Shown: piece by piece, positions 31,524-38,337 of the stretch | Position numbering within the stretch: position 1 is the stretch's first letter | Layout of the letters: each line of letters begins with the position of its first letter | Source of the DNA: an uncultured Verrucomicrobia subdivision 3 bacterium | Lineage (GTDB): Bacteria > Verrucomicrobiota > Verrucomicrobiia > Limisphaerales > UBA11358 | Length of the DNA: 61,685 nucleotides | NCBI GenBank assembly: GCA_903884535.1 | Contig: CAISEZ010000049.1 | Span: forward strand, 1 to 61,685 | Direction: 5' to 3' | The notes under the pieces: model-generated | The model's input: the letters and a program-made list of their open reading frames with translations, nothing else | The model's database searches: none | Told to the model about the DNA's origin: nothing | Position numbers and translations under genes: made by a program

Positions 31524-31654
31524 TCCATTTTGCGACCACATTTTTTGCGCGGCGAAGGGAAAGTTGGCCGGCTAATAGCATGAATTACCGGTTTTCTTGC
31601 GTTTTTACCGCGGTTTCTGTCTGGAAATCGAATGAGTGCTATTCTTCTGGACAT

Positions 31655-31670
31655 TGGCATCCCGTCTGCT
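31655..31670 (+). promoter_or_regulatory. Sigma-54-like promoter for first pilin gene
   Basis: TGGCATCCCGTCTGCT matches the -24/-12 consensus TGGCACG-N4-TTGCW at 10 of the 12 informative positions or nearly so. The invariant GG and GC are at the correct spacing. A transcript would begin about 12 nt downstream, right at the leader hairpin. An equivalent site with the same spacing lies at 32298. Confidence 0.65.
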
Positions 31671-31684
31671 TAAAAGAATTACAC

Positions 31685-31744
31685 GCGGTTGCAGCCGGCA
31701 ATCAAGTGAACAAAGTTGCAATCATATAACCCGCCGGCTGCGAC
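31685..31744 (+). ncRNA. Conserved pilin 5' leader hairpin, copy 1
   Basis: It begins GCGGTTGCAGCCGGC. Arms 31691-31699 and 31733-31741 are perfect complements, and G-U, U-A and G-C pairs extend the stem to 12 bp. The 33-nt loop contains GTGAAC and an AT-rich second half (TTGC-AT-ATATAA). A copy with different arm sequence but the same design precedes the second pilin gene. It begins about 16 nt after the -12 GC, so it would form the very 5' end of the mRNA. Confidence 0.6.
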
Positions 31745-31776
31745 GTTCCACCGCGCATTGAAAGAAAGACAAACAA

Positions 31777-32154
31777 ATGAAAGCTAATCAAAACATCCGC
31801 AAGGCGGGTTTCACGCTGGTTGAAATCATGATCGTCGTGGCCATCATCGGCCTCTTGGCGGCCATCGCGATTCCGAACTTCGTGAAAGCCCGTGCGCAGT
31901 CCCAATGCAATGCCTGTATCAACAACCTCCGCCAGATTGACGCGGCGGCCAACCAGTTCGCCCTGGAAAAAGGCAAAAGCACGGGTTACTCGTTCAGCTA
32001 TCCGACCGACTTGACCCCCTACATCAAGTTGAATTCGTCCAGCTCGATCCCGCCGTGCCCGGCTGGTGGTGCCTACACGATGGCTGCGCTCGGCACTTTG
32101 CCGCAGGAATCCTGCTCGCTCAGCACGCTGACCCCGGCGCACGTTCTGCCGTAA
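31777..32154 (+). CDS. Type IV pilin-like major subunit, copy 1
   Basis: A 125-residue prepilin. The signal ends in G before FTLVEIMIVVAIIGLLAAIAIPNF (Glu5 present), and the helix continues as VKARAQSQCNACINNLRQIDAAANQ. The small globular part carries YPTDLTPYIKL, SIPPCPAGGAYT and four Cys that could form two disulfides. Its tail is TPAHVLP. The short length and strong promoter/terminator context suggest a major, highly expressed pilin or pseudopilin rather than a GspG. It is transcribed alone; a paralogue follows at 32414. Confidence 0.9.
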   Translation: MKANQNIRKAGFTLVEIMIVVAIIGLLAAIAIPNFVKARAQSQCNACINNLRQIDAAANQFALEKGKSTGYSFSYPTDLTPYIKLNSSSSIPPCPAGGAYTMAALGTLPQESCSLSTLTPAHVLP

Positions 32155-32173
32155 TCGTCCCGTCCCCCCTTTC

Positions 32174-32204
32174 AAGCCCTAGGCGCAAGCCTTGGGCTTT
32201 TTGT
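32174..32204 (+). terminator. Intrinsic terminator after first pilin gene
   Basis: AAGCCCTAGGC, GCAA loop region and GCCTTGGGCTT form a stem of about 11 bp (one or two non-Watson-Crick pairs) followed by TTTTTG and seven T. It ends the pilin transcript 20 bp after the stop. Confidence 0.85.
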
Positions 32205-32297
32205 TTTTTTCCAAACGGGATTCTGTCCTGACCAATAAAAATCGGGAGGATGGGTCAAAGCCAGATTCCCATTTCCAAATGGTTTCAATTTTGATTC

Positions 32298-32313
32298 TGG
32301 CATTGATAGTGCT
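32298..32313 (+). promoter_or_regulatory. Sigma-54-like promoter for second pilin gene
   Basis: TGGCATTGATAGTGCT shares TGGCAT and TGCT with the site at 31655 at identical spacing, with the -24 GG and -12 GC intact. It lies 15 nt before the second leader hairpin. Confidence 0.65.
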
Positions 32314-32326
32314 ATGTTGACGGTAA

Positions 32327-32388
32327 GCGGTTCCAGCCAGCAATATGTGAACGACTATTGCCATTATATTATAAATCCGCTGGCTGGG
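32327..32388 (+). ncRNA. Conserved pilin 5' leader hairpin, copy 2
   Basis: It begins GCGGTTCCAGCCAGCAAT. Arms 32333-32341 and 32379-32387 are perfect 9-bp complements, and the loop of 37 nt again has GTGAAC and an AT-rich half (ATTGCC then ATTATATTATAAAT). Arm bases differ from copy 1 at positions that change together on both sides (CCGGC/GCCGG versus CCAGC/GCTGG), which supports a conserved RNA structure. Confidence 0.6.
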
Positions 32389-32413
32389 TGTTCACGCCGC
32401 GCAACCATAACCA

Positions 32414-32794
32414 ATGAAACCCACCAGACCTATCGGGGTGGGAGGATTCACGCTCGTGGAAATCATGATTGTCGTGGCCATAATCGGCCTGCTGTCGGCA
32501 ATCGCGCTTCCCAGTTTCCTCCATTCCCGCGCCGCCTCGCAGGCGAATACCTGCATCAACAACCTAAGACAAATTGAAGGGGCCTGCCAGCAGGTCACCT
32601 TTGCCAGAAACATGGCGGCGGGAACGACCGTCAACTATCCGACGGACATTACGCCCTACGTCAAGCTGAACTCGGCGGGCTCAATTCCGCCCTGTCCGGC
32701 CGGTGGCATTTACAGTCTGCTGCCGGTGGGGGCGAATCCCCAAACCCAATGTTCGCTCGGCACCACGCTCACCCCGGCGCATCAGTTGCCCTGA
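32414..32794 (+). CDS. Type IV pilin-like major subunit, copy 2
   Basis: A 126-residue paralogue of the pilin at 31777. The prepilin sequence is GFTLVEIMIVVAIIGLLSAIALPSF with Glu5, then SRAASQANTCINNLRQIEGACQQ. YPTDITPYVKL, SIPPCPAGGIY and TLTPAHQLP mirror the first copy, with the Cys positions largely kept. It has its own sigma-54-like promoter and leader, so the two copies are independently expressed and may be alternative or minor subunits. Confidence 0.9.
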   Translation: MKPTRPIGVGGFTLVEIMIVVAIIGLLSAIALPSFLHSRAASQANTCINNLRQIEGACQQVTFARNMAAGTTVNYPTDITPYVKLNSAGSIPPCPAGGIYSLLPVGANPQTQCSLGTTLTPAHQLP

Positions 32795-36681: not shown

Positions 36682-38337
36682 TCACTGGATCTTTAATGCA
36701 ACCGCGATATCGCTGGGTTTCCGGTCGGGCAGGGTGACGTGCAAACCGGTTTCGTCGCGGGTGAATTTTAATTTCCCGCCGCCCAGCAGCTGCACGCTGG
36801 TGATATCGCCGGGCCAGTTCGCCGCGTGGCTTGCGAGTGATTTGATGGTCACCTGTCCGTCCGCCGGCACCGCCAGCACGATGGCATAAACGGTTTTGCC
36901 ATCCTGAGATTGCGTGAAGCGGATGTCTTCCGCCGTGAACGGTTTTTTCTGCACGTCGGTCTGGCCGCCGAAACGGCCTTTCTCGGCCACCACTGTCGAA
37001 GGGCCTTCGCCGAAAATTTTCCACGGCCGCGTCGCGTAAATCGCGGCGCCGTTCACCTTCAGCCACGCGCCGATTTCACTGACGATTTTGATTTCGTCGG
37101 TGTCCGGCGTGCCGTCGCGCTGCAGCGGCACGCTCAACATCAGGTTGCCGTTTTTGCTGACGATGTCCGCCAGCATCCGCACGACGCTCGCGGCGGATTT
37201 GTATTGGTGCTGGTCGAAAATTTCCTTTTTATAATGCCACGAGCCGATGCAGGTGTCGGTCTGCCACGGCAGCGGCAGAATGCCTTCGGCCTTGCCGCGT
37301 TCGATGTCGTAGGTCATCGCCTGGCGCTGCGTTTCATTGAGCATTTTGTTGTTCATCACCGCCTCGTTGCGGCCATGCAGCTGGATGCTGGAATTGTAAA
37401 AATGCGCGGCGAGGTTGAGGCCGATGTCATCGGTGACGCCGTGAAACGGCAGCACGCTGTCGTCGAAATAAATCATGTCCGGTTGATAATCGTCCCAGAG
37501 TTGTTTGACGCGCTTGAAATATTTTTCCATGTAGGCCGCGTCCGGCGTGCTGCTGCCTTTGGCAGGATCCCAACTCCATTCCAACTTGACGCCCGGCTTA
37601 TGGTTTTGCGCGTAGAGTTCCTGCGGATCCAGCCCGTCCCACCAAAGTCCTTTGCCGTCGGTCTGGGTCAGCTTGCCGTCGTAAGGCACGCCGGCGAACG
37701 GGCCGGTCTTGTCCGCGCCCTGCGCGACTTCATACCACGACCAGGCGCGCGAGGCGTGAACACTCACGGCAAAGCGCAGGCCGTTTTTCCGCGCCGCCTT
37801 TTCCCAGCCGCCGATCAAATCCTTGTGCGGGCCGACCGCGACGGAATTCCACGGCTGATATTTGGAATTAAAATTGTCAAAATTGTCGTGATGATTGGCG
37901 AGCGCCATGAAGTATTTCGCGCCGTTCGCCTTGTAAAACGCCAGCAACTTGTCGGGATTAAAGTTCGCCGCCTGCCATGCGTGAATGACCTCTTTGAAAC
38001 CGTTCGTGGATGGATGGCCGTATTCCGCGAGGTGCAATTTGTAATCAGCGCTGCCTTCCATATACATGTTGCGCGCATTCCAGTCGCCGTCTTCCGGCTC
38101 GCACTGCGGCCCCCAATGCGCCCAGATGCCGAACTTCGCGTCGCGAAACCAGTCGGGCGTTTGATACTGCGAGGTCAGCGAGGCCCACGTCGGCTGGAAC
38201 GGCCCGGTCGCGATGTCGTGTTCGACATTGGCTGAACCCGTGGTTTTAAGTTTTGTGTGCGTCGCGGCACAGCCGGAAAAAAGGACGGTGACGGCGAGCA
38301 AAATCACGGCGTTTCTGAAATGAGTGCGGGTGGTCAT
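36682..38337 (-). CDS. GH29-family alpha-L-fucosidase, lipoprotein
   Basis: A 551-residue exported glycosidase. The lipobox is VLFSGCAA, so a lipid-anchored form is expected. The GH29 catalytic domain shows FGIWAHWGPQC, YFMALANHHDNFDNFNS, GLRFAVSVHASRAWSWY and the nucleophile Asp in PDMIYFDDS. A C-terminal beta-sandwich carries NGNLMLSVPLQRDG. It hydrolyses terminal fucose from glycans or polysaccharides; the exact linkage is unknown. It is a single gene between two terminator regions with no sulfatase or transporter next to it. Confidence 0.92.
   Translation of the reverse strand: MTTRTHFRNAVILLAVTVLFSGCAATHTKLKTTGSANVEHDIATGPFQPTWASLTSQYQTPDWFRDAKFGIWAHWGPQCEPEDGDWNARNMYMEGSADYKLHLAEYGHPSTNGFKEVIHAWQAANFNPDKLLAFYKANGAKYFMALANHHDNFDNFNSKYQPWNSVAVGPHKDLIGGWEKAARKNGLRFAVSVHASRAWSWYEVAQGADKTGPFAGVPYDGKLTQTDGKGLWWDGLDPQELYAQNHKPGVKLEWSWDPAKGSSTPDAAYMEKYFKRVKQLWDDYQPDMIYFDDSVLPFHGVTDDIGLNLAAHFYNSSIQLHGRNEAVMNNKMLNETQRQAMTYDIERGKAEGILPLPWQTDTCIGSWHYKKEIFDQHQYKSAASVVRMLADIVSKNGNLMLSVPLQRDGTPDTDEIKIVSEIGAWLKVNGAAIYATRPWKIFGEGPSTVVAEKGRFGGQTDVQKKPFTAEDIRFTQSQDGKTVYAIVLAVPADGQVTIKSLASHAANWPGDITSVQLLGGGKLKFTRDETGLHVTLPDRKPSDIAVALKIQ

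Follow-up and report, generated by a model that had tools for sequence, protein, structure and literature searches.

Two pilin genes and their leaders

The DNA analysed here, referred to as the window, is a stretch of 61,685 nucleotides of contig CAISEZ010000049.1 (assembly GCA_903884535.1) from an uncultured Verrucomicrobia subdivision 3 bacterium. It harbors two prepilin genes, each preceded by a sigma-54-like promoter and by a leader with a predicted RNA fold (Table 1). A preliminary description of this DNA had placed the two promoters, the two leaders and a 9-bp stem in each of them, all of which are located as it stated. It had also taken each leader for a conserved simple hairpin; the stem was retained here and the simple hairpin was not, since both a loop-to-bulge pseudoknot (the knot) and an outer stem had been missed.

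Table 1. Features of the pilin region in coordinates of the window
Feature	Position	Strand	Remarks
Sigma-54-like promoter, pilin 1	31655..31670	+	TGGCAT-N6-TGCT, GG-N10-GC
Structured leader RNA 1	31685..31754	+	Outer stem P0, inner stem P1 and pseudoknot
Leader 1, stem P0	31685-31688/31751-31754	+	
Leader 1, stem P1 (9 bp)	31691-31699/31733-31741	+	
Leader 1, pseudoknot	GUGAAC 31706-31711 with GUUC 31745-31748	+	4 bp
Prepilin gene 1, 125 aa	31777..32154	+	PF07963 E 4.1e-08; TIGR02532 31.8 bits, cut-off 16.3
Terminator-like hairpin with T-run, 3' of pilin 1	32178..32199	+	Terminator scan
Sigma-54-like promoter, pilin 2	32298..32313	+	TGGCAT-N6-TGCT, GG-N10-GC
Structured leader RNA 2	32327..32400	+	P0, P1 and pseudoknot
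Leader 2, stem P0	32327-32330/32397-32400	+	
Leader 2, stem P1 (9 bp)	32333-32341/32379-32387	+	
Leader 2, pseudoknot	GUGAAC 32347-32352 with GUUCAC 32390-32395	+	6 bp, complete
Prepilin gene 2, 126 aa	32414..32794	+	PF07963 E 2.1e-05; TIGR02532 26.8 bits, cut-off 16.3

P0 reads GCGG/CCGC in the window leaders, and two pairs of P1 are changed on both sides between the two copies (G-C to C-G and G-C to A-U). Folding z values were -3.29 and -1.63 for the full leaders and -2.09 and -3.23 for the trimmed hairpins; given their composition, both hairpins are only moderately unusual when judged in isolation. The terminator-like hairpin after pilin 1 points to transcription of pilin 2 probably from its own promoter; five terminator-like sites were observed in the region compared to 3.1 expected, which is weak evidence on its own.

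Fold and compensatory change in the leader family

The leader family is about 75 nt long and its architecture comprises P1 closed by P0, with GUGAAC of the apical loop pairing with GUUCAC, which lies in the bulge separating the two stems. The fold was assessed on an alignment (A5) of 75 leaders with less than 88% identity, kept from 87. Its input consisted of 89 matches at E ≤ 0.5 in the fetched loci, 88 after one was dropped by eye (positions 37165-37254 of the window, minus strand, E 0.16, without the conserved core), and L077, cut by a contig end, was left out. Standard pairs fill 93.9% of the 1477 cells of the named structure compared to 84.1% in shuffles, both sides change in 15 of 21 pairs (8.0, sd 1.5, in shuffles) and the covariation score is 0.310 versus 0.132; none of 500 shuffles reached the real value of pairing, both-side changes or covariation score. 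Control structures slid by 1-3 columns gave pairing in 31-49% of cells, the highest value being 48.6%. When no structure was supplied, RNAalifold returned both stems, slightly displaced at their ends (10-90 instead of 5-95, with 12-80 and 21-71 not called), and compensatory changes were present in 12 of 13 of its pairs. Additionally, each loop pairs better with its own bulge than with a swapped partner (a mean of 5.71 versus 4.77 contiguous pairs in A5), and no permutation of partners among 5000 was as good as the real knot pairing. At least five contiguous knot pairs are formed in 61 of the 75 leaders, window leader 1 being among the 14 with fewer.

On the message strand the helices hold 62 G-U against 10 A-C cells (in 15 versus 7 of the 17 pairs counted); these cells are related by descent and not independent, and the ratio therefore matters more than its p-value. 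Such an excess of G-U indicates that the message strand, as RNA, is the strand under selection. P0, P1 and the knot all covary and are kept through compensatory change on the message strand, so that the selection on RNA structure proposed in the preliminary description is supported both by covariation across the 75 leaders and by the G-U excess. Several unpaired letters are nearly invariant among the 75 leaders: A22 (71), A23 (72), U24 (74), G42 (70), U46 (73), A67 (74) and C69 (74). Mean identity in the unpaired core amounts to 0.93 for AAU, 0.72 for GUAAUNAU and 0.79 for UAACCC; values are lower for the centre of P1 (0.49), the short linker (0.33) and the upstream 14 nt (0.29).

Distribution and pilin context

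A first covariance model, made from the two window leaders only and comprising P0 and P1, gave 82 places at E ≤ 1, the two seeds among them, distributed over 41 of 59 related genomes. The search suggested at the outset, with a model of the two leaders run upstream of prepilin genes in related genomes, thus gave many matches, and homologous leaders do exist in those genomes. Because the two-leader model finds homologues across related genomes, chance no longer suffices as an explanation of the hairpins. It is close to certain that the leaders are members of a structured-RNA family. A second model was built from A5 without encoding the knot; with it the element was detected in 144 members of a 293-genome sample of the window's order, some of which had themselves supplied A5 sequences. 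In a sample of the class, 26 of 236 genomes had a match at E ≤ 0.01; outside the order five matches were obtained (E 0.002 to 0.010), of which L166 and L168 have no loop-to-bulge pairing and were treated as chance, as was, with less certainty, L167 (a 72% GC match with a long insert). The other two of the five, in G349 and G462, are weak as well (E 0.008-0.010). In a phylum sample of 240 genomes, 24 rows were listed, all of the same class, and the other 216 genomes had no match; the matches were only those of the window's own genome and three weak places of the class sample, L166, L167 and L168.

An exact-pattern scan of named species genomes returned 57 loci, 49 of which were confirmed by the model; the other eight had no model match, and one of these, L147, showed no leader when inspected by eye. 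As the pattern is strict, the scan misses many members. Records of the 49 confirmed loci are named Verrucomicrobia bacterium, Verrucomicrobiales, Verrucomicrobia subdivision 3, Limisphaerales and Pedosphaera, among others; that of L120 reads only 'bacterium', and L143, labelled Omnitrophota, coincides in its positions with G196, a genome of the window's order. From these record names the order carrying the element was taken to be Limisphaerales. Spread on viruses was rejected, as the exact pattern was present in none of the IMG/VR contigs searched.

When three result sets were joined, a leader was present in 49 of the 59 relatives, those without a match being G008, G010, G012, G032, G036, G041, G042, G048, G050 and G055. 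Among the matches listed, no pilin of these ten resembles pilin 1 at an E better than 1.5e-24, whereas 48 of the 49 leader-bearing relatives possess one at E 2.4e-26 or better; the exception is G023, whose leader sits near a contig end. A contig end is only a few hundred bases away from several leader-pilin loci (G034:C28:144, G034:C32:138, G034:C35:269, G009:C49:112 and G025:C182:59, among others), perhaps because near-repeated pilin genes break assemblies.

Altogether 137 distinct elements were compiled, 113 with enough downstream sequence and 24 too near a contig end. A prepilin gene follows in all 113 evaluable cases (111 by motif, and two of L076 by eye). Sigma-54 promoters have the consensus GG-N10-GC with TGGCA / TGC, and this arrangement is what lies upstream of the leaders: at least 6 of 8 consensus letters were found before 124 of 135 leaders (fewer before the other 11) compared to 25 of 133 stretches further upstream. 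RpoN is encoded in 57 of the 59 relatives, including the window's genome and all ten relatives without a leader. The pilin genes occur in several copies, often in tandem, and three leaders are present in four of the 27 multi-copy loci having at least two scored ones. In five tandem arrays (L029:2176, L152:4031, L155:2066, L161:2283 and L165:3182) the most upstream detected leader scores 4-5 of 8 for its promoter and the next copy scores 8, and perhaps another promoter type drives the first pilin there.

The same associations were seen in 40 held-out leaders from genomes outside the window's genus and absent from A5, some of which are the same places as named loci of the context count, so that the two sets overlap in part. 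At least 6 of 8 promoter letters were found for 38 of the 40 (36 of these at 13-18 nt), and a prepilin lies downstream in 36 of 36 evaluable cases (35 by motif, and a degenerate pilin in L226), the other four being too short. The knot is complete in 39 of the 40; these leaders were located by a model that knows the letters of the knot columns and not their pairing, and their selection therefore favors consensus letters. Knots departing from the common letters nonetheless occur in 13 of the 40, and in L210, L217, L224 and L228 both strands are changed with pairing kept; only 2 of 10000 partner shuffles equalled the held-out result. L226 holds the sole incomplete knot, its pilin motif is degenerate (FTPVK), and gene and leader look as if they had decayed together.

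Some close pilins occur without a leader. The set considered comprised 110 rows of at least 105 bits among the matches listed, after nine rows with a match starting past residue 22 (gene start cut) had been left out. Among the matches listed, a leader precedes 68 of 107 evaluable close pilins (63 at known places plus five more, in L248, L249, L251 and twice in L250), and the remaining 39 have none at E ≤ 0.05 with the second model, apart from a 15.6-bit remnant in L175. At about 988-1036 of L175 (G016:C123) what appears to be only the 3' end of a leader is kept, the rest being replaced by unrelated, apparently coding sequence, which suggests recombination within pilin loci. Several leaderless pilins keep a sigma-54-like promoter, as judged by eye, and promoter and leader are therefore separable; one of these is L172, a paralogue of 77% identity in the window's own genome. 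In L172 (G000:C70, upstream of 26738) this promoter lies very near the start, and the message may be almost leaderless. With 39 of the 107 close pilins lacking a leader and several of them keeping the promoter, pilin expression as such does not require the leader. A different upstream arrangement occurs in L179 and L187, from two genomes of the genus, where a leaderless pilin sits downstream of a tRNA-Gly(TCC) gene (L179:585-658 and L187:616-689). In a tree of 125 pilins, of which 108 have a leader and the 17 others, all belonging to the window's genus, do not, the leader label requires eight changes and leaderless pilins nest inside leader-bearing groups. This pattern is consistent with repeated loss, in a tree with good support for only 57 of its 122 inner branches.

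Position on the message and possible function

The promoter was scored and the start codon was measurable in 97 leaders, of which 93 have 13-18 nt between the -12 C and P0 (median 15, IQR 14-16), whereas the spacing from P0 to the ATG has a median of 23 (IQR 19-25, 5-95% range 8.8-36.2); when leaders are taken without this selection, the promoter distance is 13-18 nt in 117 of 135. Transcription from sigma-54 promoters starts 12 nt after the -12 C, and P0 would thus begin at about +2 to +7 if the start is deduced from the promoter. The fold keeps a stricter register with this inferred 5' end than with the start codon, and for that reason the element is considered to be tied to the 5' end.

A Shine-Dalgarno sequence of the GAAAG type is present in 64 of 108 cases. 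Burial of the ribosome-binding site (RBS) by the element was rejected, as the region is open both with the element (unpaired 0.65) and without it (0.69). A scan for an alternative helix with the RBS or the start of the pilin coding sequence showed none standing out, in an alignment whose knot columns are misaligned, so that the scan says nothing on the knot; the terminator scan reported no terminator-like site between either window leader and its gene. An expression platform, whether a terminator or RBS sequestration, was thus not found, although one of a less usual type may exist.

Since the fold turns up before pilin genes in many genomes of this order of little-known bacteria, the leader probably controls how much pilus protein is made. 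We tentatively propose that it does so as a 5' cap. Transcription would start 1-6 nt before P0, going by the promoter, and the mRNA would open with the folded knot. RNase E/G can enter mRNAs from their 5' end; the cap would block this entry and in doing so would set the lifetime of the pilin mRNA. The conservation of the unpaired core (AAU, GU-AAU-AU and AACCC) next to a varying stem suggests a binding site, and the cap may therefore be gated, the core being the probable site where a ligand or protein tightens or opens it. This conservation also counts against a passive cap, as mere protection by a hairpin could do without such strict conservation of unpaired letters. Of the 59 relatives, 50 encode RNase E/G, and the window's genome is one of them; the enzyme is present in 41 of the 49 with a leader and 9 of the 10 without. 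RNase E/G, like RpoN, is as common where the element is absent, and this also counts against the proposal. The enzyme was not found in the remaining eight leader-bearing relatives, seven of which are rated 69-91% complete; the other genome, G034, is 94% complete and carries three leaders, which counts against RNase E/G as the only target. That the knot might stop RNase J in the manner of exonuclease-resistant RNAs was rejected, since the RNase J model gave no match over its cut-off in the 59 relatives and weak matches in 58 of them.

A riboswitch, in which the pseudoknot core would bind a small signal other than c-di-GMP and alter pilin translation or mRNA decay, is possible, if rather unlikely. 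The leader does present a conserved, structured, aptamer-like domain in the 5' UTR, a compact pseudoknot in which several unpaired letters hardly vary whereas those of the stem change freely, and only pilin genes lie downstream, as a signalling input would predict. However, no expression platform accompanies it: pairing with the RBS or coding start is not conserved, the RBS is open and no terminator-like site follows the leaders in the window. As to the signal, c-di-GMP and cGAMP (Hypr) are unlikely as general ligands because GGDEF was found in only 5 of the 59 relatives (4 of the 49 with a leader, and not in the window's genome), and their sensing was rejected. The c-di-AMP cyclase family DAC was found in 56 of the 59, so that such a signal is at least available and c-di-AMP is possible; on the other hand, being near-universal in the set, DAC does not discriminate and its presence is no evidence for c-di-AMP. 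A reading in which the knot represents a novel class of riboswitch, with an aptamer at the 5' terminus that responds to a signal other than c-di-GMP and gates the 5' end to decay without a terminator or RBS platform, is considered doubtful.

Recognition of the knot core by a regulatory protein, be it a translational repressor or activator or a decay factor, would fit the same pattern of core conservation and the confinement of the element to one gene family in one order, and is regarded as improbable. CsrA, present in 22 of the 59 relatives, was rejected as the protein concerned because it occurs in only 18 of the 49 that carry the element (and in 4 of the 10 that do not). An element acting as DNA (an inverted repeat for recombination between pilin copies, a cruciform or part of the promoter) is very improbable: the multicopy, often tandem pilin genes and the leader end kept in L175 would agree with it, but the excess of G-U over A-C lies on the message strand (in cells that are not independent), loop-to-bulge pairing is no DNA inverted repeat, and the promoter also occurs before pilins that lack the leader. 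A translated leader peptide (GUG AAC ... UAA) can practically be dismissed, since leader 1 does read GUG AAC AAA GUU GCA AUC AUA UAA but the frame between the two sites is spread over the three phases (30, 29 and 16 of 75), with start and stop in frame in only 19 of 75.

The leader does not appear to belong to a known RNA family. At the gathering threshold, none of the 4227 families of Rfam 15 matched the window; at E ≤ 10 the region 31600-32450 gave one match, at 32161-32205 and off both leaders, and at E ≤ 1 a further 18 loci gave five, none of them on an element. A known family was accordingly rejected, as no Rfam covariance model matched any element searched, the models of the GEMM-I and c-di-GMP-II folds included. 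Families of the 2017 set of 224 motifs are reportedly part of Rfam. The leader is filed as a new family of a known kind, the cis-acting structured 5' leader. Stem-loops of the ompA type, in which a 5'-terminal structure stabilizes the mRNA of a surface protein, are similar in their place at the extreme 5' end (here inferred from the promoter), and differ from the present element, which forms a pseudoknot, has a conserved core and occurs in numerous genomes of one order. Control of pilA by sigma-54 and PilSR is well known and involves the same promoter type, to which the RNA leader would here be an added layer, separable from the promoter. The literature searched, which consisted of PMC papers, contains no description of such a leader, in agreement with the preliminary description, which knew of no described element of this kind; PMC2864571, PMC11109978 and PMC8632094 hold no occurrence of pilin, pilus, pili or Verrucomicrob.

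Structured 5' leaders that control a major type IV pilin do exist: in Clostridioides difficile the c-di-GMP-II riboswitch Cdi-2-4 lies upstream of pilA1 (PMC6366702). The present leader differs from it by the lack of an Rfam match and of a terminator-type platform, by the rarity of GGDEF (5/59) and by its sigma-54-like promoter. In Geobacter, GEMM-I and cGAMP (GEMM-Ib) RNAs also tie RNA signalling to pili, as cGAMP reporter levels change in pil mutants (PMC8835794), whereas the leaders described here match neither model and their genomes have no general cyclase for the ligand. The leader does not show the defining features of these pilin-linked c-di-GMP or cGAMP riboswitches and is not a member of them. 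In topology it resembles preQ1-II and preQ1-III, described as HLout pseudoknots in which the hairpin loop pairs with a strand outside its own stem (PMC11625349), an assignment that for the pilin leader is our own reading. Unlike in the present element, whose RBS is downstream and open, their knot takes in or docks the Shine-Dalgarno sequence, and their genes and sequences differ from those of the pilin leader.

Returning to the 5' cap, the full statement would be that an undescribed family of cis-acting structured RNAs occupies the extreme 5' end of sigma-54-driven pilin mRNAs and acts as their cap; we judge it about equally likely to be right or wrong. In any case, an RNA family absent from Rfam and with strong covariation support is found in an order where GGDEF is rare (5 of 59 relatives), and it is seemingly tied to the 5' end of the message and not to the ribosome site. 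If the knot were a new riboswitch class, surface attachment would be set by a ligand-gated mRNA lifetime in an order whose sampled members are mostly without GGDEF. The question of how such bacteria control the pilus is thereby tied to a defined RNA that can be probed.
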